Part shown: piece by piece, positions 31,713-43,632 of the stretch
Numbering within the stretch: the first letter of the stretch is position 1
How the letters are laid out: each line of letters starts with the position of its first letter
Assembly: GCA_022846035.1 (NCBI GenBank)
Contig: AP025580.1
Coordinates: 1,426,001 to 1,490,000 of the forward strand
DNA: 64,000 bases
Origin: Christensenellaceae bacterium
GTDB taxonomy: Bacteria > Bacillota > Clostridia > Christensenellales > Christensenellaceae
Reading direction: 5' to 3'
Made by a program: the position numbers and the translations under genes
Notes under the pieces: model-generated
The model's database searches: none
What the model was told of the DNA's origin: nothing
The model's input: only the letters and a program-made list of their open reading frames with translations

Positions 31713-31849
31713 GATACCGCCGTCCTTTTCGGTTTTATTATAGCATAGCCGCCGCTTGCTGTCAGCGTTTTCCATTGTTTTCGTTTGGCGGATATGCGGT
31801 ATGTGTATAAATATATTACAATATTATATGGATGGAGGATATGATTTTC

Positions 31850-32572
31850 ATGAAAAAGAATATTCTGGGAACATTGGCGATCGCCTTTGGTTCTATATTT
31901 ATTTTCGCGGCATGCACCGCCGTGCCCGCTTCCCCTCCTCAAACGGAGAGCAGCGATCTGATTCTGGCTGCGAAAGGTGAAATCACCAATATCGAAACGG
32001 ACGGCGATACCGCCAGCCTGACGATAGACGGCAGCGGTGTCGAATCCGACGCGGCCTATCAGCTCCTGATCGTACATCCGACAAACGAAACGCCCCTCAT
32101 CGAAAACGGGAACGCTTCGGCCTATGAGCCGGCTTCGCTTCAGGTCGGTGACAAAATTGCTGTCTTTCTTTCCCCCAACGCTCCCGTAACCGCTTCTGAG
32201 CCGCCGCAGGCGACGCCGGAAAAAATTGTCGTTACAGAGCGCGCGGCCCAAGGTGCGGGAACGGAAAGCTCCGCATCTGCCGATGTAAAAACGGAATACG
32301 AAGGCAGTATTACCGAAATCACACCGGACGGCGATTATTACCTTGTATACCTCCAGAAAGAAGAAAACGGTGAACCCGCGCACGACCTGCGGGCGGTTGT
32401 TTCCAGCGACACAGAGATCGTTTCCGAAAAACGCGAGGCGAGCGGCCTTGCGCCTAACGAACTTAAAATCGGCGATAAGGTGACCGTTACCACCAACGGT
32501 ATCGCCACTTTCTCGATTCCGCCGCAGGCTTCCGCACAAAAAATCGTGATTCACGATGCGCAGGAAAAATAG
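31850..32572 (+). CDS. Lipoprotein with two related beta modules
   Basis: 240 residues. Lipobox FAAC near residue 22. Two halves are similar: GEITNIETDGDTASLTI...LQVGDKIAVF...PEKIVV and GSITEITPDGDYYLVYL...LKIGDKVTVT...AQKIVI, each about 100 residues, like small OB-type beta barrels. It is anchored to the outer membrane face; the function is unknown. GGAGG lies 11 bases before ATG 31850. Confidence 0.8.
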   Translation: MKKNILGTLAIAFGSIFIFAACTAVPASPPQTESSDLILAAKGEITNIETDGDTASLTIDGSGVESDAAYQLLIVHPTNETPLIENGNASAYEPASLQVGDKIAVFLSPNAPVTASEPPQATPEKIVVTERAAQGAGTESSASADVKTEYEGSITEITPDGDYYLVYLQKEENGEPAHDLRAVVSSDTEIVSEKREASGLAPNELKIGDKVTVTTNGIATFSIPPQASAQKIVIHDAQEK

Positions 32573-32589
32573 CGCATATTCTCCAAAAG

Positions 32590-32615
32590 CTCCGGCATAC
32601 CGCCGGAGTTTTTTT
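32590..32615 (+). terminator. Terminator after the two-module lipoprotein gene
   Basis: 7-bp stem CTCCGGC/GCCGGAG, loop ATACC, then seven T. In the minus direction four U follow, so it may also stop the ecf operon. Confidence 0.9.
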
Positions 32616-33300
32616 ATGTCTGCAGCCCGAATTTCGTTTTGATCCGCTTAAGCTTTTTCCCCCAGGCCGCGAGGATCAGAACCAAAAAGACCACTGTAGA
32701 GATACAATGCGCCAGGTTAAAAGGAATCCCCGCCAAATATGCCGCCAGCGCGCCCTGCCAGGTGATAGGCGATACAAAACCGACGATATACCACGAATCC
32801 ATGATAAAGCCGAACAAAAACGAGGACAGCGCGCCATACATGTAAATCAAAAAATCTTTTTTGAAAAGCCCCCGCTCATTGAGCAGCCCCGCCAAAAAGC
32901 CGACTATCCCCCACGCGTACATTTGCCACGGCGTCCATGCCCCCTGCCCGAAAAACAGGTTTGACGCAAGCGCGGCGAGCGCCCCCGCCAAAAAACCGCT
33001 TTGTCGCCCAAAACAAACGGCAGTAACGATTACGATTGCGGAAACAGGCGTAAAGTTGGGAAAGGGCGCAAAGACAATACGCCCTGCGACAGCGATCGCC
33101 GATAGCACCGCAACGGGCATCATATCCCGTGGCCGTGGTTTTTTCATCTCGAAACGCAGGAAGAAAGGCAGCAGCGCGCATACCGCCACGGCGATACTGA
33201 GCAATGCCGTATTCTCTGCCGCAAAATACGCGCATAAAAACAGTACAACCGGAACGGCTATGAGCGATATTGGCTCCATCCATTTGAGCGCATTATACAT
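32614..33300 (-). CDS. ECF transporter S component (corrinoid specificity inferred)
   Basis: 228 residues with about six membrane helices, including the S-component-like block VCFGRQSGFLAGALAALASN and the SPITWQGALAAYLAGIPFN helix. It captures the substrate in the membrane and pairs with EcfT-EcfAA'. It overlaps the ATPase gene by 8 bases. The cobalamin riboswitch upstream of the operon and the two DUF4430 proteins point to cobalamin or another corrinoid as ligand; this is inference. Confidence 0.82.
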   Translation of the reverse strand: MYNALKWMEPISLIAVPVVLFLCAYFAAENTALLSIAVAVCALLPFFLRFEMKKPRPRDMMPVAVLSAIAVAGRIVFAPFPNFTPVSAIVIVTAVCFGRQSGFLAGALAALASNLFFGQGAWTPWQMYAWGIVGFLAGLLNERGLFKKDFLIYMYGALSSFLFGFIMDSWYIVGFVSPITWQGALAAYLAGIPFNLAHCISTVVFLVLILAAWGKKLKRIKTKFGLQT

Positions 33301-34897
33301 ATCTCAGCACATCCTTTACCGTGACACAGTCCGAAAGGATACCTCGCGTCATCCTGTTTACCGCCGTCGTATAAAAGCTATTTCCCAAGAAAAACGACCT
33401 GCCTTCATCCGAACAGATCACATTCCCGTCAAAAAGCATAGAACAGCGCTGGGCATGCGAAGCGGCAAATTCAAGGTCATGCGTCACTATGACCACCGCC
33501 ATCCCGCTCGCGGCCAGTTGCTTTAGCAGATACGCCAACTCGTCTTTTGCCATGGCGTCCATGCCTTTGGTCGGTTCATCAAGAAGCAGTACGTTTGGCT
33601 GCAAAAGCAGCAGCTTTGCTATCGCCGCTTTTTGCATCTCGCCGCCGCTCAAGTCGTAAGGGTGCTTTTCAAGGTGCGGTAATAGCCCAAAAGTCCGCGC
33701 CATATCCTCCATGTCCCGCCTCGCATAATGAAACGCCTTTGCGTTTTCCATCAACTCCGCCCGCAGCGTATCGCAGACAAACATCGTTTTGGGGCTTTGC
33801 ATTAGCAAGGCCGTCCGCATCTCTTCTGCGCGGCGCACCGTTCCCCGCGACGGTTTCAGCAATCCGCAAAGCACGCCGAGCAGAGTGCTTTTCCCGCTTC
33901 CGTTCCCGCCCAATATGCAATGCATTTCACCCTGCCGGATCTGGATTGCCAGTCCCTTTAATACGAAATCGCCTTTCCTGTCGTAGCGAAACCAAATATC
34001 CTTTACGCCGATTGCCGCCGGTTTTGCGGATACTTCTTCCTTGCGCGGCGCAGGCGGGTGCGGCTTCCGCCGGTGTGCGGCGAGCATCCTCCTGCCCTCT
34101 TTTACGCCGAGCGGAATATCTGCTGTTATTCCCATCCCCTCAGCAAGCCGAACGGCTGCAGGCAGCGACGGAATAAACGCTTCTTCTCTCTTGCGGATAC
34201 ACCATCCCGCAAACTCTTCCGGCGTTCCATAAAAACGCCTTTGCGCTTTGGATAAGTAAAGTACGCTGTCCGCGATGGGAAGCACGTCGTCGAGCCTGTG
34301 TTCCGACAGGATGACCGTTTTTCCAAGCTCTTCATTAACACGCCTTAACGTCTGCAGGAATTCCTTTGCCGCGATCGGGTCAAGCTGCGCGGTCGGCTCG
34401 TCCAAGATAATTACATCCGGCTGCATTGCCATAACCGCCGCCAGGTTGAGTATTTGCTTTTGCCCGCCGGAAAGTTCGTTTACACTCTTTTCGAACCACG
34501 GCCCGATTCCAAAAAAATGCGCCGTTTCCGCAACGCGACGGCGTATCACACCCGTGGGAACTCCCAGGTTTTCCAGCCCGAACGCCAGTTCGTGCCATAC
34601 CGTATCCGTCACGATCTGGTTTTCGGGATTTTGCATTACAAAACCGATCGTTGCCGCCGATTCCGGCGGTGCAACATCGTCTATCCCACATCCGTCGACA
34701 AGAATGCGTCCCCTTTTCTCGCCATACGGCGCAATTTCTTTTTTCAGGCAGCGCAGCAGCGTCGTTTTACCACAGCCCGAACGCCCGCACACCAACAGAA
34801 AGGACCCTTTTTCAACTGCAAACGTAATATCCTTAAGAGCATCGTCCGTTGCTGTGGGATAACGGAACGAAAGCTTTTCTACCGTAATTTTTTCCAT
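33293..34897 (-). CDS. ECF transporter ATPase, fused EcfA-EcfA'
   Basis: 534 residues with two ABC domains in one chain. Domain 1 (about 1-230): Walker A GRSGCGKTT, signature LSGGQKQILN, Walker B VIILDEPTAQLDP. Domain 2 (about 310-530): GGNGSGKST, LSGGEMQKAAIA, VLLLDEPTKGMD. ATG 34897 was chosen because homology begins there; the upstream 54 codons lie within ecfT. It overlaps ecfT by 19 bases, suggesting coupled translation. Confidence 0.92.
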   Translation of the reverse strand: MEKITVEKLSFRYPTATDDALKDITFAVEKGSFLLVCGRSGCGKTTLLRCLKKEIAPYGEKRGRILVDGCGIDDVAPPESAATIGFVMQNPENQIVTDTVWHELAFGLENLGVPTGVIRRRVAETAHFFGIGPWFEKSVNELSGGQKQILNLAAVMAMQPDVIILDEPTAQLDPIAAKEFLQTLRRVNEELGKTVILSEHRLDDVLPIADSVLYLSKAQRRFYGTPEEFAGWCIRKREEAFIPSLPAAVRLAEGMGITADIPLGVKEGRRMLAAHRRKPHPPAPRKEEVSAKPAAIGVKDIWFRYDRKGDFVLKGLAIQIRQGEMHCILGGNGSGKSTLLGVLCGLLKPSRGTVRRAEEMRTALLMQSPKTMFVCDTLRAELMENAKAFHYARRDMEDMARTFGLLPHLEKHPYDLSGGEMQKAAIAKLLLLQPNVLLLDEPTKGMDAMAKDELAYLLKQLAASGMAVVIVTHDLEFAASHAQRCSMLFDGNVICSDEGRSFFLGNSFYTTAVNRMTRGILSDCVTVKDVLRYV

Positions 34898-35742
34898 GCG
34901 AGCCGTTCCTTTCCCTCCAGGATCAGGGGATAAAAAAGCAGGAGCCCATATGGAATATAGGCCCATATATTTTCTTCGATCCCCGCAAGATATGGATAAT
35001 ACATAAATGTTCCGCCAATCACGAGGATACTGGCGACGCTCAGTCCGGCCAAGCCGCATATGACGGCCAGCGATAAAATATCGTGCCGTTCCAGCTTGAA
35101 CGGGGAAAACGTCGTCCGCTTTTTGGCGCCATATCCGCGTGCGCGCATAGAATCCGCCGTTTCAACGCTATCCTCCATGCTCCATCCCATCAGAACCGAA
35201 GCGGTGCGCACAGCATTTTTGAAACGCTGCTTTTTCTTTTCCTGCCGCATGTTCATCCCGTCCTGCGCATTCATCACGCACCGCGCCCTGTATGCCGTCT
35301 GCGGGATCAGCTTCAAAGTCATGGATACCATCAGCGCCGTCGTGGGCAATATCCTGCCGAACAAATAAAGGAACTTATCGTTTGTCATCAGCGCCGCATA
35401 GCACGAAAACCAAATGAATACACTGAGCAGCTTCAGTCCTGCGCATAGCCCATAGACGAAAGCTTCCAGCGTGACCGGTTCGTCAAACAAATAAAACAGT
35501 ACCGTAAGCCCGCGATGGTTAAAAAGCGGGTTTAGCAGCGCGATGACGGCAAACATCATGAGCAGGAACGAAAGCGAAGAAAAGTATTTACGCGCCCCAC
35601 CCAGATAGACCGCATACATACTTCCCGCTAGAAAAGAAATCAAAAGATAGACCGGCTGCATGCTGAACATCGTGCACACGAGCACAGCCGCCAGATACAG
35701 GAAAATGACGCTCGGATGGTAGATCGTAAAAATATGCCGCAT
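34879..35742 (-). CDS. ecfT: ECF transporter T component (CbiQ-like)
   Basis: 287 residues, about six membrane helices, and the coupling motif SMRARGYG near residue 205 that inserts in the ATPases. It follows the DUF4430 lipoprotein by 3 bases. It forms the energising module with the fused ATPase. Confidence 0.9.
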   Translation of the reverse strand: MRHIFTIYHPSVIFLYLAAVLVCTMFSMQPVYLLISFLAGSMYAVYLGGARKYFSSLSFLLMMFAVIALLNPLFNHRGLTVLFYLFDEPVTLEAFVYGLCAGLKLLSVFIWFSCYAALMTNDKFLYLFGRILPTTALMVSMTLKLIPQTAYRARCVMNAQDGMNMRQEKKKQRFKNAVRTASVLMGWSMEDSVETADSMRARGYGAKKRTTFSPFKLERHDILSLAVICGLAGLSVASILVIGGTFMYYPYLAGIEENIWAYIPYGLLLFYPLILEGKERLAWKKLR

Positions 35743-35745
35743 ACG

Positions 35746-36453
35746 TTACGCCCCAATATCCGCTCCCATGTCACACGTATACCGCCATCTGATGTTATCG
35801 CCGTCCGACAGCGTATATTTGGTGCAGCCAACGCTCGGATAATCTCCGTTCACACTGTACATCCAGCCGCTTCCCGAGCCGCAGTCCCCCTCGCCGATCG
35901 AATTGATGGACGAAATATAACTCTTGCCGCTGAATGTGATACCTGTCGCTTTGAGCGCGTCATAGACGGTCGCTTCGGGGCCCAGCGTCACCCTCTTGCT
36001 TTCCAGGATCGTCCCAGATGAGGAAACCGCGTTTGCCAGATCCGGATCCACATTGAGCGCCGCTGCGCAGTCGATAGAAATCGTACAGGTAATTGTTTTT
36101 GCCTGCTGCGGTGTGGATTCAGGCGTATTTGCCGTCTCCTGCGGAACTGCAGCGCCGCTTTCCGTATTACTCCCCGCAAAACGATTACCCGTTTCCCTGG
36201 GCGCGGCCGAGCCGTCCGATTTTTCTTTTACCCGCGCAGATACACTTGCGGAGGGTTCCTCCGTTACCTGTGCGCCCGCGCTTTCAGGCGCGGATGACGT
36301 CGGGCTTACGGACGCGCTTGCGGGTGCAGATGTCTGCAAAGCTTCCCCCGTCGTCATGTCCGGCGATTCGCTCGGTTGCTCAGCCGGCGCGCAGCCTGCC
36401 AGCAGGCCCAGGCAAAGCAGGCCTGCCAGCAATATGGTCCATAGTCTTTTCAT
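35746..36453 (-). CDS. DUF4430 (transcobalamin C-terminal-like) lipoprotein
   Basis: 235 residues. Lipobox LLAGC at about residues 17-21, a long Ser/Pro/Ala-rich linker (to about 120), then a DUF4430 domain: CTISIDCAAAL, TVYDALKATGI and GSGWMYSVNGDYPSVGCTKYTLSDGDNIRWRY. This domain is homologous to the C-terminal beta domain of transcobalamin and intrinsic factor. I infer a membrane-anchored corrinoid receptor that passes ligand to the ECF S component. It starts 25 bases after the giant surface protein with GGAGAG. Confidence 0.88.
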   Translation of the reverse strand: MKRLWTILLAGLLCLGLLAGCAPAEQPSESPDMTTGEALQTSAPASASVSPTSSAPESAGAQVTEEPSASVSARVKEKSDGSAAPRETGNRFAGSNTESGAAVPQETANTPESTPQQAKTITCTISIDCAAALNVDPDLANAVSSSGTILESKRVTLGPEATVYDALKATGITFSGKSYISSINSIGEGDCGSGSGWMYSVNGDYPSVGCTKYTLSDGDNIRWRYTCDMGADIGA

Positions 36454-36478
36454 CGTTTCTCTCCGTCGTACTCTCTGT

Positions 36479-39400
36479 TTACTGTTCCCTGCGCCGCCTG
36501 CGGTTTAAGGCCAGCGTTATGCATGCCGCTGCGGCAGCCGCGAAAAGCAGGACGACGTATCCGCCGATCTCCCGCGTATCCCCCGTCTTTGCCGCGGACG
36601 TTTTCGACGTTGTTCCCGTATTTTCCGCCGCGCCTGTGCTTTGCGCCTTTTCCGCCAGTGCATACAGGCTGAAATGGTCGGTCTCAAAATAGGCCATGTT
36701 TCCTTCCACGGTCACTGTGTATTCCACACGGCTTCCATCCGCATCGATACGGTAAACGACCAGCCTCGTCTTATCAAAACCGTCCGGAATCGGGATACCG
36801 ATCCTCACCTTGCCGTTCGGCTGTACCGGATTGCCATTAGGATCCGAAAGGCTGATCTCAAACAGCACGAATTTTGCACTGTCCTTGCCGATTGTTTTTT
36901 GCGTCAGCTCAAAGCCCGCGCCGGATTCCACCTTTTCGGTTTTTAAAATAGTTCCTTTCGGCACCACCGTCGTATCCGTGTCGATCGTGACGCCCGTACT
37001 GTTGTCCGTATCCCGCACTGGCTTCATCCATTCCTCGAGCGAGCCGCCAACGCGGTAAATATTGTAGCCCGACGCGCTTAGGCGGCTGTACGCGATCAGC
37101 GCGCGGAACCCCTGTTCCGTTGCCAGCGCGTCCGCCGCAGCATTATCCGTATATCCAAAACGGTTATCCTGCGTTACAAAGCTCATCAGGTTTTGGTATA
37201 CGCTGTTGCCGTTTTTGACGAACCTGCCATCCGTATTCGCGTCGATCCCCAGCGAAGTCAGCGCGATTACGACCATCGCCGCGTCATTGCTGTTCTCCGC
37301 ACCATAGTAAACGTAGCCGCCATTTGCAGACTGCGCCGCAGCAAGGTAATCAAGTCCGCTTGTAACGGCGGACGCTACGCCCGCCCTGTCCTGATAAGGC
37401 GCAAGCGCCGAAAGGACGATTGCCGTCATGCTCGCTTCGGACTCGCCCGGCATATAGGACCAGCCGCCGTCCGCGTTCTTATTGGCGAGCAGATATTCAA
37501 TCGCTTTTTCGCGTGTGTTTTCCGCGCCGGAGGGCAGCGTATAATTGCCCGAATCGTAGGCCAGCAATGCAAACGCCTGCGCGTTTACCGTATTAAGGCG
37601 TGCCACCGGTAATTGCGCGAGTACATCCACATATTGCCGCGCATCCATGCCGAGCGCGCTCATCGTCATGATCAGGCGTTCATAATCCGTCGCGTTGTTT
37701 GTACGGAGATGCGCGATCGATTCCTTGATGAAATTTACCTTTGCCGCCCGCGTGGCGAACGCTTGATCCGCCCCCGCATAAACGGCCAGGTCAAAAGCTG
37801 CCCAGTCGGATGTGGAATCCTCATAAGGCAGGTTCGTATAGTCTTTGGCGATCGTGCTCATGAGATCGCTTGCCGAGGCATTGCTCTTCGCGCCCATAAG
37901 CTGTACGGTAACAGGCTGCGCAACCGTCTCGCCGCCCTGTGTAAACAGCAGCATGACCTGTTCTTCCACCGCGCCGAACGAAGTGTTTTTGCGTGCCAGC
38001 TTATACTGGCCAAGCGGTTGTCCCGCGCTCGTTACATAGCTATTTTCTCCCGCCTCGCGGCAGAGAACTTCAATGTTTTCATCCGGCGTCGCGCCGTCTT
38101 TCAGCTTCGCAACGAGCGGCGTTACGTTCGCATTTTCTTCCACCGTGTTGGGGATCGTTACATAGCTTTCATACTTGGCAGCTTCCTGCCTGAGCGCCGT
38201 TTTATCAGCCTCTTCCTTGGCCTGCGCCGCCAACATCTCCGTAAGCTTTGCCGCCGCCTGCTCCTTGGTAAGCGCCGTCCTGGCGGCAGCCGCGTCCGTC
38301 GCTTCATGCGTACCGCCAATATAATTCCCCAGCCCCTTGATTTTGGTTCCCAGGCTGGTTTCGCTGTTCCCATAGCACTCCCGCAAGGTAAGCAGGTCGT
38401 CATTATAGGACCAAACCGTTCCGTCGAACGCGCCCGCAAAACCGCCGTTATAGCTCCATCCCGGCGTCAGTGTACCCGTGCTCACGCATTCCTTTAGCAT
38501 ACCCGAGACGGACCCCGCAAAACCGCCAAAATAGTAACCATAGCCGTCCTCTATCGCTACGACATTGCCTGTCGCATAGCAACGCTCCGCCGACGTTCCC
38601 ATTCCGATGCTTCCGGCAAAGCCGCCCGTAGTATAGCCGCCCACAACGTTACCTGTCGCATGGCTCTTATAGATATTGGCGTATCCGTAGTTGCCGCCCA
38701 CAAAGCCGCCTGTGGAGTTGCCGCCAAACACGTTTCCCGTCGCTTCGCACTGCAAGATATTTCCTTTGTTCCAGCCCACGAGACCGCCGACATGTCCGGA
38801 TTCCGTGTTGTCCGCTCCGCCTGTGCTCGCTGTTACTTCAACGCTGGAAGAACAGTTGTCAATTGCGCTGAACGCCGATTTTCCGTCCTTGCTTCCGCCG
38901 TCGTTAAGGCCGACGAGGCCGCCCGCGTCCGTTTGCTTGATATATACTGTGCCCAATGCATTCAGCTTTCCGGACACATGGCAATTTCCGATCAGATTTG
39001 CCTTTTCGCTTGCAATATCCGCGCGCGCGTTTCCCACCAGCACGCCGATCCTGCTGCCTCCCGTTACGGATGCGTTTTCCACGGTCAGGTTCAGGATGGA
39101 CGCTCCCTCGATCACGCCGAACAGCCCGATGTTCTGGCTTCCTACGCTCTTTTCTATTTTCAAATTTTTTATTTTATATCCTGCGCCGTCGAAAATTCCA
39201 CTAAAGGGAACCGTTTCGCTGCCGATGGGCAAGGCCGTAACGCCTGAAAGATCGATATTGGCTGTCAGTTTATAATTCTTCGCCCAGTCTGCCGCCTGAT
39301 TTGTGCTGTTCATGAGCGCAACCAACTGTTCCCTTGTGCTGATCGTTTCATATTGCAGCGGAACAGGCGCTGTCATTTCCGCCCATGTCGGCGCTTTATA

Positions 39401-42340
39401 TCCGTTTGCCGTCGTACCCTCATACCAAAGGATTTTATCCCCAGACTTGATTTGGGCCGCGCTTACTCCCACCGGCGACTGTTTATCGTTAATCGTAAAC
39501 ATCCAGCCATCGGGTGCTTCCAGCGTTTTATCGTTGATCGTTTTTATAAATGTTCCCGTGGAGCTTTGCTCCGCCGCATACGTCATCTGTCCCGCCGCCT
39601 GCGCCGCGCTCATCACCTGCTCCGCCGTAATATCTTCTCCTGCGGCTTTGACGGTGAAAGGTTGCTCCGATTTTATAAACCGATAGCTTACATTATCCCA
39701 GTTTGCAACCAGAATCTGTACGCTGATCTCCTCCGCTACAGGCGCATTCGCCGCAGGCGCTGCGTTCACCAGATAAGGATAGCCGTTGTTGACGATCCTG
39801 CCGTCCGCACCGGCGTCTACCCTCCACGCGCCGCCCAGCAAGGAAGCAAACGCCGCCGTCTTCATCTCCGATGCTGTTTTAGCCGTTGCCGCAACTGTTA
39901 CGGCCTGTGTATCCGGTCTTAATTTGCCGGAGTTATAATACCCGTTTACAACGCTGCCGACACTGTCAAAGGAAAATCCTTTTCCCCCCACAAGCGCCCC
40001 GCCTGTGCCCACAGAAGCATTTACATCATTGGCTGCGTATACATTTGTGAGCGTCGAAGGATCTGCAAGCATCCCTGCAAAACCGCCCAGTTCATTGTTT
40101 CCCGTCACAAGACCCATCGCGTAGCAATCGGTGACCGTTCCCTTTTCCACACCGCCGGCAAAACCGCCAACCCATTTATAGCCGGAAACGCTCGCAGACG
40201 AGAAACTCTCGCTCACCGATCCGCTCGCCGCAATTCTTCCAACCAAGCCGCCTGTCATCGTGCCCGTACCCTGATAGGTTACGCTTCCGCCTGACACGCC
40301 ACATTGCCTGACCAGCCCCTCATTGTTCCCTATAAGGCCGCCCGTCCGCGTATTAAACTTTGATACGACTGTCGAGCCGACGGAGTAACACTTTTCCACC
40401 GTTCCTTTGTTATTGGAAACCAGCGCCGCAGGATAATGACTGCTGCTGCTTACCGTGTCCTCGATCGCCGCGTTTTCAAGCGTCAGGTTGCGGATAATGC
40501 CGTCTGTACCGACATAGCCGAACAAAGCCTCCCCCGCGATGGAAAGATTCTTGATCGCGTGACCGCCGCCGTCAAAAACGCCCGTAAAGACTTTTTCGCC
40601 CGACGCGCCATTGTTGTATTTACCGATCACTTTTCCGGCTTGTCCGGCCATGTCGATGTCGTTTGCCAGCTTATAATTTTTCGTCAGGTCCGCATTGGTC
40701 TTTGCAAGCGCGAGCAACTCATCCGGCGTAGAAATCAGAATAAATTCCTGATCGTCTTTTTTTACAAACTGGTAAGCCGCACTGCGCGAAGATTCCTTGC
40801 CTGTAATATAATCCGCGCTTGCTTCCGGCGCAACCGCCTGCACCGTGAAAAAGTAATCCCCCGTTTCCGTGATAACCGCCTTAAAGTCCTTGGATGTTCC
40901 CGTAATATTTGCATAGGTATCAACAAGCGTATCCGTATTTTTGTAAAGCTTTACCGTATACGACTCCGCTCCTGTTACCGCGTTCCATGAAGCGGTCGCG
41001 TCCGTCCACGCAAGGCCCGAAGGCTGCGCGAGCTCTGCCGGACCGGACGGTTCCCCGCTTCCTTCGGGCGCCTGTACGTTGACAAGATACGGGTAACCGT
41101 TGTTCTTGCCGTCATCCTGCGTCCATGCGGACCCCAGCGTTCCCGCAAGCGCCTTTAATTCATCCCCTGTTTTCGCCAGCAGGTAGCTTCCCTGGCTTTT
41201 TTCTGTTCCGTTTCCACTAACGGAAGCCGTAGAAAGGTAAAACGCTTTTGATACATAACTGCTCATGAAAAAGCCGTCGCCAAAGAATTTTCCAAAATAA
41301 TTATTCGTACCGGTAGAAACAACGGATGCAACAGTATAGCAATTTGTATATTTCGCGCTATCTTCCGAGCCTACAAAGCCGCCGACATATTTCGCGCCCG
41401 TTACGCCGCCCGCAGAAAAGCAGTTTTCCATCGTTCCGCTATATCCAAATCCTACGAAGCCGCCGGCCTGTTCGCTTTCAGAAACGACAGCAGCCGTTGT
41501 ATAGCATTCGCCGATCTTGCCCGGAGAATAACAATAACCCACGAAGCCGCCTACGCCTTTTCCTTTACCGGCAGCCGTTTGCGAAACGCTTCCCTGATCC
41601 ACGAAACATCGCGTAATATCGCCTTTGCTGTAACCGGCAAACCCGCCGATATACCCCATTGTCTGTGTGCACGCAGAAGATACCGCGGTATTCTTTACCG
41701 CGCATCCCTGCACCGTTCCCGCATGATAGCCGATTATTCCGCCAACGTACTGGTCGCCGGAAATATCGCTGTCCGCAAGCGTCACATTTTCTGCCGTGCC
41801 TGTCAGCTTACCAAACAAGCCGACATAGTTTCCAGACGATGTGATCGTCAGGTTACTGATGGTCTGGCCGTTCCCGTCGAAAGTGCCTGAAAACGGCGTT
41901 GAACTGTTTCCCATCGGCTGCGCCGCAGTTACGCCGCTCATATCGATAGGCGCCGTTACTTTCAGTTGTTTATCCCAATAGGCAGGATCGTTCATTACCG
42001 CCAGTAAATCATCAGGCGAGCTGATCAATATTTCATCGCCCTCGGTTGTAAGCGGCAACGCGTCAATTCCAGTCTTCTCATCCAGCGCCATGACCGCCGT
42101 ATCCAAAGCCTCGCTTTGCGCCGCTTGCGCCGACGATGGAGCAGGCGTAACAGATGGGTCCGGACTCGCCGATGGGCTGGCCGACGGCGTCTCTGCCGAA
42201 ATCAGCGTCTCCTGAAACGTATCCGTTGCCGCAGGCGTTTCGGCTGCGGCGGGCATATCTGCCGCCATAGACGCGCCCGCGATGCTGAATATCATGATTA
42301 CCGCCAATAACACCGCTGAAATTCTTTTTCTGCTCTTCAT
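36479..42340 (-). CDS. Giant GLUG-repeat surface protein with DUF4430 and transcobalamin-like alpha/alpha domain
   Basis: 1,953 residues. Order: signal peptide (1-27, ending GASMA), Pro/Ser-rich stretch, GLUG repeats (about 100-420), fibronectin-like domain (about 435-525), GLUG repeats (about 530-860), DUF4430 (about 868-985, with GWMFTINDKQSPVGV), GLUG repeats (about 995-1350), helical segment, an alpha/alpha-barrel like squalene cyclase/prenyltransferase and the transcobalamin N-domain (about 1510-1760, NADGGWSYMPGE and ANGGYVYYG repeats), a ZU5-like beta domain, and a C-terminal anchor AAKTGDT + hydrophobic helix + RRRRR. ATG 42340 has AAGGAAG 6 bases upstream. Control by the cobalamin riboswitch supports a corrinoid-binding role. 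Confidence 0.88.
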   Translation of the reverse strand: MKSRKRISAVLLAVIMIFSIAGASMAADMPAAAETPAATDTFQETLISAETPSASPSASPDPSVTPAPSSAQAAQSEALDTAVMALDEKTGIDALPLTTEGDEILISSPDDLLAVMNDPAYWDKQLKVTAPIDMSGVTAAQPMGNSSTPFSGTFDGNGQTISNLTITSSGNYVGLFGKLTGTAENVTLADSDISGDQYVGGIIGYHAGTVQGCAVKNTAVSSACTQTMGYIGGFAGYSKGDITRCFVDQGSVSQTAAGKGKGVGGFVGYCYSPGKIGECYTTAAVVSESEQAGGFVGFGYSGTMENCFSAGGVTGAKYVGGFVGSEDSAKYTNCYTVASVVSTGTNNYFGKFFGDGFFMSSYVSKAFYLSTASVSGNGTEKSQGSYLLAKTGDELKALAGTLGSAWTQDDGKNNGYPYLVNVQAPEGSGEPSGPAELAQPSGLAWTDATASWNAVTGAESYTVKLYKNTDTLVDTYANITGTSKDFKAVITETGDYFFTVQAVAPEASADYITGKESSRSAAYQFVKKDDQEFILISTPDELLALAKTNADLTKNYKLANDIDMAGQAGKVIGKYNNGASGEKVFTGVFDGGGHAIKNLSIAGEALFGYVGTDGIIRNLTLENAAIEDTVSSSSHYPAALVSNNKGTVEKCYSVGSTVVSKFNTRTGGLIGNNEGLVRQCGVSGGSVTYQGTGTMTGGLVGRIAASGSVSESFSSASVSGYKWVGGFAGGVEKGTVTDCYAMGLVTGNNELGGFAGMLADPSTLTNVYAANDVNASVGTGGALVGGKGFSFDSVGSVVNGYYNSGKLRPDTQAVTVAATAKTASEMKTAAFASLLGGAWRVDAGADGRIVNNGYPYLVNAAPAANAPVAEEISVQILVANWDNVSYRFIKSEQPFTVKAAGEDITAEQVMSAAQAAGQMTYAAEQSSTGTFIKTINDKTLEAPDGWMFTINDKQSPVGVSAAQIKSGDKILWYEGTTANGYKAPTWAEMTAPVPLQYETISTREQLVALMNSTNQAADWAKNYKLTANIDLSGVTALPIGSETVPFSGIFDGAGYKIKNLKIEKSVGSQNIGLFGVIEGASILNLTVENASVTGGSRIGVLVGNARADIASEKANLIGNCHVSGKLNALGTVYIKQTDAGGLVGLNDGGSKDGKSAFSAIDNCSSSVEVTASTGGADNTESGHVGGLVGWNKGNILQCEATGNVFGGNSTGGFVGGNYGYANIYKSHATGNVVGGYTTGGFAGSIGMGTSAERCYATGNVVAIEDGYGYYFGGFAGSVSGMLKECVSTGTLTPGWSYNGGFAGAFDGTVWSYNDDLLTLRECYGNSETSLGTKIKGLGNYIGGTHEATDAAAARTALTKEQAAAKLTEMLAAQAKEEADKTALRQEAAKYESYVTIPNTVEENANVTPLVAKLKDGATPDENIEVLCREAGENSYVTSAGQPLGQYKLARKNTSFGAVEEQVMLLFTQGGETVAQPVTVQLMGAKSNASASDLMSTIAKDYTNLPYEDSTSDWAAFDLAVYAGADQAFATRAAKVNFIKESIAHLRTNNATDYERLIMTMSALGMDARQYVDVLAQLPVARLNTVNAQAFALLAYDSGNYTLPSGAENTREKAIEYLLANKNADGGWSYMPGESEASMTAIVLSALAPYQDRAGVASAVTSGLDYLAAAQSANGGYVYYGAENSNDAAMVVIALTSLGIDANTDGRFVKNGNSVYQNLMSFVTQDNRFGYTDNAAADALATEQGFRALIAYSRLSASGYNIYRVGGSLEEWMKPVRDTDNSTGVTIDTDTTVVPKGTILKTEKVESGAGFELTQKTIGKDSAKFVLFEISLSDPNGNPVQPNGKVRIGIPIPDGFDKTRLVVYRIDADGSRVEYTVTVEGNMAYFETDHFSLYALAEKAQSTGAAENTGTTSKTSAAKTGDTREIGGYVVLLFAAAAAACITLALNRRRRREQ

Positions 42341-42375
42341 TTTGTTCTTCCTTTCGCTAACCTTTTGGCGGCAAC

Positions 42376-42404
42376 AAAAAAGCTCCCGCCCTCTCGGCAG
42401 AAGC
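42376..42404 (-). terminator. Terminator in the riboswitch expression platform
   Basis: On the minus strand a 9-bp stem GCTTCTGCC/GGCGGGAGC (two G-U pairs), loop GAGAG, then TTTTTT, ending 36 bases before the ATG. A GGCGGGAAG segment upstream (about 42448-42456) can pair with the first arm and may act as antiterminator. Confidence 0.88.
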
Positions 42405-42476
42405 ATACATTTGCGTGTCAAAAAAGCGCAAACAAAAAAGCCCGTCCTTCCCGCCGAAAGACTCACAATATCATCA

Positions 42477-42629
42477 TTCAGGCAGGTCTTCCGACTTTGG
42501 GGTCTTCTGCTCTTTACGCCTTCCCAACAAATCTGTCAGTGGCATTTTGTAAAAAGCATCTCCCATTACGGCAGCGGGGGCTGTGCCGGACTTACACCGG
42601 CTTCCCTATTGATCCTTGCGGAACCTAAA
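42477..42629 (-). ncRNA. Cobalamin riboswitch
   Basis: Canonical adenosyl/methyl-cobalamin aptamer on the minus strand: GGGAA, GCCGGTG-AAGTCCGGC, ACAGCCCCCGCTGCCGTAA, the B12 box core GCCACTG, GGGAAGGC, and GTCGGAAGACCTGCC. The ends TTTAGG and CCTGAA pair as P1. It controls the operon beginning with the giant surface protein. Confidence 0.96.
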
Positions 42630-42681
42630 CAATATATATCAATTTATATTCAGCATATCATAGAATTCTTAAGAAAACAAC

Positions 42682-42706
42682 AAAAAAGGCGGAAAAACCG
42701 CCTTTT
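42682..42706 (-). terminator. Terminator of argF
   Basis: 9-bp stem AAAAGGCGG/CCGCCTTTT, 5-base loop, U-tract on the minus strand. Confidence 0.92.
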
Positions 42707-42726: not shown

Positions 42727-43632
42727 TTAATCGCCCATCAACTTTACCATCACGGCTTTTTGCGCATGCATACGGTTTTCCGCTTCATCAAAAATTTCCT
42801 GCGCGTGCGCTTCGAATACTTCCGCAGTGATCTCCTCTTCCCTGTGCGCGGGCAAACAGTGCTGTACCATTGCATCCGGCTTCGCGACAGCCATTACTTC
42901 CGCGTTGACCTGGATCCCCTGGAAAGCCTTTTTCCGCGCTTCCACCTGCGCCTCATGACCCATAGAAGCCCACACGTCCGTAAACACTACGTCCGCATCT
43001 TTCGCCGCAGCATAAACGTCTTCCGAAATGGAAAATTTCGGGTTCCCCTGCGCAAATTCCAACACCGCAGAATCCGGCGAATAGTCCTTGGGGACCGCGC
43101 AGGCAACTTCCATACCCACGGTAAGACCGCCTACAATCAGGGAATTTGCCATATTGTTTCCATCTCCGATGTACGCCATTTTAAGGCCGTCAAAGCTCTT
43201 CTTATATTCGCGGATCGTCATCAGGTCTGCGAGCACCTGGCATGGATGCGCATAGTCAGTCAGTCCGTTGATGATCGGAATACTGCCGTATTCGGCTAAG
43301 TCTTCCACCTCTTTTTGCGCGTAGGTACGGATCATGATACCATCCAAATAACGCGACAGCACGCGCGCCGTGTCCTGTACAGGCTCGCCCCTGCCGATCT
43401 GCAAATCGTTCGACGACAAAAACAGCGGGTATCCGCCCAACTGGTACATGCCTACCTCAAAGGATACACGCGTACGCGTGGATGATTTCTGGAAAATCAT
43501 TCCCAGCGTTTTCCCCGCAAGAATGGGATGCTTGATCCCTTTTTTATTGTCATCCTTAAGCTTGTCCGCGAGGTCCAGTATCCCGATGATCTCTTCCTTT
43601 GAAAGATCGCTCATTTTCAGCAAATGTTTCAT
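42727..43632 (-). CDS. argF: Ornithine carbamoyltransferase
   Basis: 301 residues. Carbamoyl-phosphate loop SSTRTRVSFEVGMYQLGG near residue 50, HPCQVLADL near 128, and the ornithine loop HCLPAHREEEI near 262. It makes citrulline from ornithine and carbamoyl phosphate. Its own promoter carries an ARG box, so biosynthetic control is likely. The gene neighbours pyrBI, which shares carbamoyl phosphate. Confidence 0.96.
   Translation of the reverse strand: MKHLLKMSDLSKEEIIGILDLADKLKDDNKKGIKHPILAGKTLGMIFQKSSTRTRVSFEVGMYQLGGYPLFLSSNDLQIGRGEPVQDTARVLSRYLDGIMIRTYAQKEVEDLAEYGSIPIINGLTDYAHPCQVLADLMTIREYKKSFDGLKMAYIGDGNNMANSLIVGGLTVGMEVACAVPKDYSPDSAVLEFAQGNPKFSISEDVYAAAKDADVVFTDVWASMGHEAQVEARKKAFQGIQVNAEVMAVAKPDAMVQHCLPAHREEEITAEVFEAHAQEIFDEAENRMHAQKAVMVKLMGD

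Follow-up and report, generated by a model that had tools for sequence, protein, structure and literature searches.

The window analysed here, a stretch of 64,000 nucleotides of contig AP025580.1 from a Christensenellaceae bacterium, contains five tightly packed genes, all on the minus strand and running from 42340 to 32614, behind a cobalamin riboswitch and a terminator hairpin. Judged from its sequence, this is most probably a cobalamin-repressed operon for the scavenging and import of corrinoids, a reading to which we assign a probability of about 0.82. The genes encode a giant surface protein with a DUF4430/SLBB domain and an alpha/alpha toroid, a lipoprotein with a second SLBB domain, and the EcfT, fused EcfA-EcfA' and S components of an energy-coupling factor (ECF) transporter. 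An earlier note on this DNA had proposed that an ECF transporter with extracellular parts resembling transcobalamin imports corrinoid under the control of B12. This proposal is supported by the likeness of the S component to CbrT, by the recurring association of the parts, and by a segment from a relative that matches both domains of transcobalamin.

The riboswitch aptamer at 42464..42643 (minus strand) matched RF00174 with 127.1 bits compared to a gathering score of 31.5. The match covers the full model (positions 1-189) and is the sole Rfam match at the gathering threshold within the window. It confirms the canonical cobalamin aptamer of the earlier note, whose end at 42629 falls 14 nucleotides short of 42643. 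The interval between aptamer and start codon holds a terminator hairpin (42382..42404, minus strand) with a 9-bp stem including six GC pairs and a following TTTTTT, which is a probable attenuator. When B12 is scarce, the riboswitch would permit transcription through this hairpin; we infer this direction of the switch, and with it the repression by cobalamin, from the sequence. The gene of the giant protein, listed as an open reading frame from a GTG at 42466, was taken to start downstream of the riboswitch with an ATG at position 42340, and the EcfA-A' gene, listed from 35059, at the ATG at 34897. With these starts the genes are separated by gaps of 25 and 3 nucleotides, followed by overlaps of 19 and 8 nucleotides. 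The single orientation and the close packing described before were confirmed. The domains were reproduced with Pfam and NCBIfam, which added GLUG repeats to the giant protein.

The S component (32614..33300, minus strand; 228 amino acids, hydrophobic segments) matched chain A of 6FNP (ECF-CbrT) with an E-value of 3.7e-9 as a single sequence and of 3.7e-20 with the family profile. This profile, comprising 32 of the 51 listed S components and that of the window (33 sequences), gave 75.6 bits for CbrT compared to 29.2 bits for the riboflavin uptake protein 3p5n and 24.3 bits for chain S of 4hzu, a predicted membrane protein. According to the available part of the report on 6FNP, ECF-CbrT was demonstrated to transport cobalamin and cobinamide (PMC5997447). 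The N-terminal 55 residues of the S component hold two extra hydrophobic segments preceding the part aligned to CbrT, and the same was observed in loci L111, L098 and L133.

The other two transporter genes raise the question of a different cargo. EcfT (34879..35742, minus strand), the T component of the recurring operon, belongs to the CbiQ family (25.2 bits, cut-off 25). The fused EcfA-EcfA' ATPase (33293..34897, minus strand; 534 amino acids) comprises two ABC_tran stretches and matched TIGR04520 with 318.9 bits (cut-off 315), and its score with cbiO, a model of cobalt ATPases, is likewise above the cut-off (239.7 vs 211.8). Some ECF cobalt transporters sit under a cobalamin riboswitch, and both assignments would suit a CbiMNQO-like transporter for cobalt uptake under such control. 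Nevertheless, the S gene gave no Pfam match to CbiM at E ≤ 0.1 and has CbrT as its nearest solved relative, while the SLBB partners recur. In addition, a search for B12 synthesis covering CbiD and CobS gave no match to CbiD in the host genome, which implies that de novo synthesis would hardly create a demand for cobalt. Due to the lack of a CbiM-like S gene and of a CbiD match, cobalt uptake was set aside as very improbable.

The recurrence of the parts is in line with corrinoid import. At E ≤ 0.001, 32 of 81 genomes of the same order, the own genome included, contain DUF4430 and 50 contain the cobalamin riboswitch; with the curated cut-offs, these numbers fall to 29 and 46. DUF4430 lies at most 8 kb downstream of a riboswitch on the same strand in 18 of the 22 genomes having both, compared to about 0.1 expected, a rough value that assumes a fixed genome size. 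This indicates that the association is not due to chance; over the curated cut-offs, the linkage was found in 14 of 18 genomes. In the 31 DUF4430 loci fetched at order level, family profiles detected the S component in 10, EcfT in 11, the ATPase in 9 and the toroid in 6, and single-sequence phmmer found an S homologue in 15. Six smaller loci (L039, L041, L052, L053, L062 and L064) showed DUF4430 and a phmmer match to S with EcfT unmatched, and the stricter profile kept S only in L039; perhaps they share an ECF module encoded elsewhere.

A second set of loci was obtained by scanning a species genome collection with a seven-toroid alignment and one peptide pattern, resulting in at least 596 stretches and at least 563 relatives. 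The best 80 stretches, representing 78 distinct loci, were retained, and the co-occurrence figures describe such toroid-bearing loci only. By record title they are mostly from Bacillota, with one metagenome-assembled genome of Eggerthellaceae. With thresholds of 150 bits for the toroid, 300 for the ATPase, 60 for S and EcfT and E < 0.01 for the SLBB domain, the five parts occurred together on a single strand in 54 of the 78 loci. As the fetched stretches measured up to 20.8 kb, this does not imply strict adjacency. Several of the 24 incomplete loci stop at contig edges, and toroid and SLBB lie within one protein in 52 of the 78. Matches of the riboswitch covariance model were accepted only where nhmmer also gave a match at that position in that orientation, and the resulting counts are lower bounds: at least 47 of the 78 loci have such a doubly confirmed riboswitch on the strand of the toroid, as do at least 39 of the 54 full sets (56 of the 78 loci with nhmmer alone at E ≤ 0.1). 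The association of riboswitch, DUF4430 and ECF genes thus recurs among these toroid-bearing loci. As a further observation, EcfA, EcfA' and S form one polypeptide in 30 of the 78 loci (e.g. L079:12566-15406 and L084:12081-14696), a fusion that would tie the S component to its motor.

The SLBB lipoprotein (35746..36453, minus strand; 235 amino acids) carries its SLBB domain at 35776-35973 (PF14478, 68.1 bits, cut-off 23.8) and, by reading, a lipobox LAGC. In a count of 56 SLBB-only proteins, each had a hydrophobic segment at the N-terminal end, whereas such a segment was absent from the C-terminal end in every case. Their SLBB domain is highly conserved, with a mean column identity of 61% in an alignment of 48 sequences (47 of the 56 listed domains and that of the window). 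A lipobox as a family-wide rule was rejected, as one pattern matched 6 of the 56 proteins. That DUF4430 corresponds to the C-terminal domain of transcobalamin, as stated in the earlier note, agrees with the available part of PMC4350170, in which DUF4430 is located at the C-terminal end of transcobalamin.

The giant protein (36479..42340, minus strand; 1953 amino acids) contains hydrophobic segments at residues 7-25, an N-terminal signal, and at residues 1927-1945, the latter followed by RRRRR. Pfam assigned GLUG with 86.1 bits, the best repeat (PF07581; residues 1206-1233, 38642..38725, minus strand) lying in the interval between SLBB domain and toroid, and DUF4430 (PF14478; residues 905-973, 39422..39628, minus strand) with 45.5 bits at a cut-off of 23.8. 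The protein would be exported and held at the surface, presenting SLBB domain and toroid outside the cell. The host genome has seven sortase matches. For the C-termini of 94 SLBB- or toroid-bearing proteins of more than 480 amino acids (93 from the toroid-bearing loci and that of the window), a Pfam search found SLH domains in 42, dockerin in 11, and CWB2 and Gram_pos_anchor in one each; self-made anchor patterns were less sensitive than Pfam and were dropped. The SLH domains suggest an attachment to the S-layer instead of by a sortase motif.

Two groups of these relatives were inspected individually. SLH domains close the surface proteins L116:2633-9766, L119:9521-12547 and L149:8-6982. A type I dockerin stands at the end of the SLBB-toroid proteins L079:8939-10924, L087:7713-9677 and L103:283-2157 (three of three checked whole), which by record title belong to Ruminococcus bromii and uncultured Ruminococcus. 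To judge from these sequences, B12 capture might here be coupled to a scaffold resembling a cellulosome or amylosome.

Adhesins are commonly very long proteins with GLUG repeats, and the giant protein could be an adhesin or wall protein merely sharing the operon, so that uptake would need just the lipoprotein and the ECF complex. The missing detection of a toroid in five of the nine order-level loci with EcfT, ATPase and S would be consistent with this. However, the whole set is present in the majority of the loci chosen by their toroid, as described above, and in a comparison of two species the SLBB domain, the intervening stretch and the toroid are the best-kept parts of the giant protein, with 80-86% compared to 68-69% in the flanking parts. 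Between the window and genome G002, nonsynonymous (dN) and synonymous (dS) divergence, the latter near saturation, amounted to about 0.11 and 1.3 for the toroid, 0.08 and 1.4 for the SLBB domain and 0.09 and 1.4 for the stretch between them, compared to 0.24 and 1.5 for the N-terminal part. A mere co-residence of the giant protein is accordingly regarded as unlikely, and its participation in corrinoid import is preferred.

The toroid comprises about residues 1488-1762 (37055..37879, minus strand). Its model shows an alpha/alpha barrel of the (alpha/alpha)6 fold, with a predicted local distance difference test score (pLDDT) of 84.5 and a predicted template modelling score (pTM) of 0.86. Best structural matches in Foldseek and VIA-align were squalene-hopene cyclase 2sqc_A (Z 21.8, 2.9 Å, 249 aligned), drimenyl diphosphate synthase and cellobiose 2-epimerase. 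Pfam likewise gave sub-threshold Prenyltrans and SQHop matches at residues 1604-1733 and, for 65 toroids at E ≤ 1, SQHop_cyclase_C in 62, Prenyltrans in 52 and Cobalamin_bind in 2 (weak, best E 0.055). A sequence search of the toroid profile against the PDB returned 35 sequences at E ≤ 10, transcobalamin not being among them. Based on these matches, the transcobalamin likeness of the window toroid alone is one of fold class.

A closer relation was obtained for a toroid-SLBB segment of Paenibacillus lycopersici (L137:9848-11005; model pLDDT 89.3, pTM 0.77). Its Foldseek ranks 1 to 15 are all transcobalamin, haptocorrin or intrinsic factor (E 9.4e-9 to 2.4e-7, 398-439 alignment columns), with terpene cyclases trailing at 9e-6. 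VIA-align gave a Z of 17.5 for 4kki (235 aligned, 3.3 Å) and of 17.1 for 7qbf_A (324 aligned, 22.2 Å), and terpene cyclases reached up to 20.5 for the toroid part alone. On the basis of this model, the toroid family has the transcobalamin domain pair. The transcobalamin-like alpha/alpha region claimed before therefore holds for the fold and for the relative, but less so for the window itself, where the toroid is nearest to terpene cyclases and epimerases, the motifs are altered and the SLBB domain is distant.

The content of the host genome (2.77 Mb, one contig, 99.76% complete) fits a corrinoid scavenger as far as sequence can tell. Besides that of the operon it contains two cobalamin riboswitches. 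One (L006, G000:C1:221223-221408) precedes nrdD/nrdG, both products scoring over their cut-offs, and the class II, B12-dependent ribonucleotide reductase NrdJ (728 bits) is encoded elsewhere in the genome. The other (L007, G000:C1:714045-714225) precedes a binding protein, a permease and an ATPase resembling BtuFCD, with scores below the curated cut-offs (BtuF 115.6, BtuC 268.3, corrinoid ATPase 267.5 bits); the binding protein scored higher with TIGR04281 (138.5 bits) than with BtuF. CobS and two B12-binding domains are present.

Several observations weigh against corrinoid capture and import by this operon in the form described. The BtuFCD-like genes are a second riboswitch-linked importer in the same genome. 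At order level, EcfT, ATPase and S occur together in 9 of the 31 DUF4430 loci and all five parts in 4, so that a riboswitch-linked SLBB domain is commoner there than the full set. Among the matches listed, 22 of the 78 toroid loci have no riboswitch on the strand of the toroid, one of them having a riboswitch on the opposite strand. Concerning the giant protein, a canonical LPxTG was not seen by reading, its last 230 residues gave no family match in Pfam, and its SLBB domain lies about 515-535 residues N-terminal of the toroid with GLUG repeats between them. Transcobalamin was not among the 50 matches listed for the window toroid in either structural search, nor among the six sequences that the SLBB profile returned from the PDB by sequence. 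In the P. lycopersici segment, the overall root-mean-square deviation from transcobalamin of about 22 Å suggests that each domain fits while their mutual placement differs. Finally, an alignment of 65 toroids (64 of the 78 locus toroids and the window) has 58 positions that are conserved in at least 85% of the 64 relatives. The toroid of the window retains 43 of them, the second lowest number of all 65 (median sequence 56 of 58).

The last point bears on the role of the toroid. The 15 differing positions, one of them a gap and some conservative, cluster in the four motifs QGxxG, DxDxTAM, ESxxQ and GGFxH within residues 1583-1730. Genome G002 shows the same alterations, while G001 of the same genus retains the family motifs. 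Compared with dS, the low dN of the toroid between window and G002 indicates a domain that is altered yet retained by purifying selection. These findings could be explained by corrinoid import in which the toroid of this lineage has lost its binding, or has turned to a different ligand or another form of corrinoid, and the SLBB domains perform the capture. The altered residues may or may not touch a ligand, and we consider this reading a serious possibility, somewhat below even odds.

Altogether, it is assumed that the operon serves corrinoid import in the following way. SLBB domain, toroid or both would bind corrinoid outside the cell, the membrane-seated SLBB lipoprotein would pass it to the S component, and EcfT, EcfA-A' and the CbrT-like S component would import it using ATP. 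In a wider and more tentative view, which falls just short of an even chance, this would be a class spread mainly in Bacillota, in which a toroid/SLBB trap anchored to wall or scaffold delivers to a membrane-tethered SLBB protein docking on a CbrT-type S component. The lineage of the window would have remodelled the pocket of its toroid to suit a different form of corrinoid, and the class would be a bacterial counterpart, possibly an ancestor, of the intrinsic-factor route. If this is true, the membrane-tethered SLBB protein would be an extracellular partner of an ECF transporter, a type of transporter generally taken to need no binding protein outside the cell. Access to B12 is contested in the gut, and a recurring surface trap combined with an ECF importer would account for the means by which such bacteria compete. 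Defined proteins could then also be used to test whether intrinsic factor and transcobalamin are of bacterial origin, as has been proposed.

The operon is delimited on both sides. Upstream, an intrinsic terminator (42684..42706, minus strand; 9-bp stem and T-run, fold z -4.73) lies behind a gene at 42727-43632, a carbamoyltransferase by sequence reading alone. Just past the S gene, a strong terminator-like hairpin (32585..32613, 12-bp stem), found on the plus strand and folding on both strands, is possibly a bidirectional terminator. It faces a convergent plus-strand gene (31832-32572) with a DUF3221 match and, by reading, a lipoprotein-like start, for which no link to B12 was seen.

The operon is not new in kind. 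According to the available part of Burroughs et al. 2007 (PMC1796856), an SLBB operon class was predicted for B12 scavenging in hosts missing B12 synthesis. In this class SLBB proteins occur in pairs, toroids may be fused before or behind the SLBB domain, and a transfer into animals was proposed. In common with those operons, the window has a multi-domain extracellular SLBB protein, there often with a toroid, a second extracellular SLBB protein, a CbiO-like ATPase and a CbiQ-like membrane protein in one predicted operon. Of the two synthesis enzymes covered here, CobS is present, and CbiD, being unmatched, appears to be missing as well. To what the available part of the 2007 paper describes, in which the word riboswitch is absent, the window adds its riboswitch, an S component resembling CbrT, the fusion of EcfA and EcfA', GLUG repeats and a toroid with altered motifs. 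The 2007 prediction gains support from the riboswitch linkage, the CbrT-like S component and the two-domain structural match. Less expected are the alterations of the toroid and the relatives with dockerin or SLH domains.

A lipoprotein partner is already an annotation term: the available part of PMC9963975 contains a table with the protein name "Additional lipoprotein component of putative cobalamin ECF transporter", which would denote an SLBB protein, and, as a separate entry, a DUF4430 protein beside rtpR. The B12 transporter families known from gut genomes are BtuFCD and CbrT in the available part of PMC6593275, and that of PMC2667541 holds nothing further on SLBB. Among the open-licence papers listed, none was an experimental investigation of B12 capture by an SLBB/DUF4430 protein from bacteria.

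Among characterised transporters, ECF-CbrT of Lactobacillus delbrueckii (6FNP; PMC5997447, available part) is the nearest solved relative of the S component, and the ECF module is common to both. In contrast to ECF-CbrT, the window operon has a dedicated EcfT and EcfA-A', an S component with an N-terminal extension of about 48 residues, and SLBB partners. With transcobalamin, haptocorrin and intrinsic factor the window shares the toroid fold and the DUF4430/SLBB domain. Compared to this family, the SLBB domain of the window precedes the toroid with GLUG repeats between them instead of standing directly behind it, and the toroid motifs are altered. Whereas transcobalamin, haptocorrin and intrinsic factor are secreted, the giant protein of the window is probably attached to the cell.

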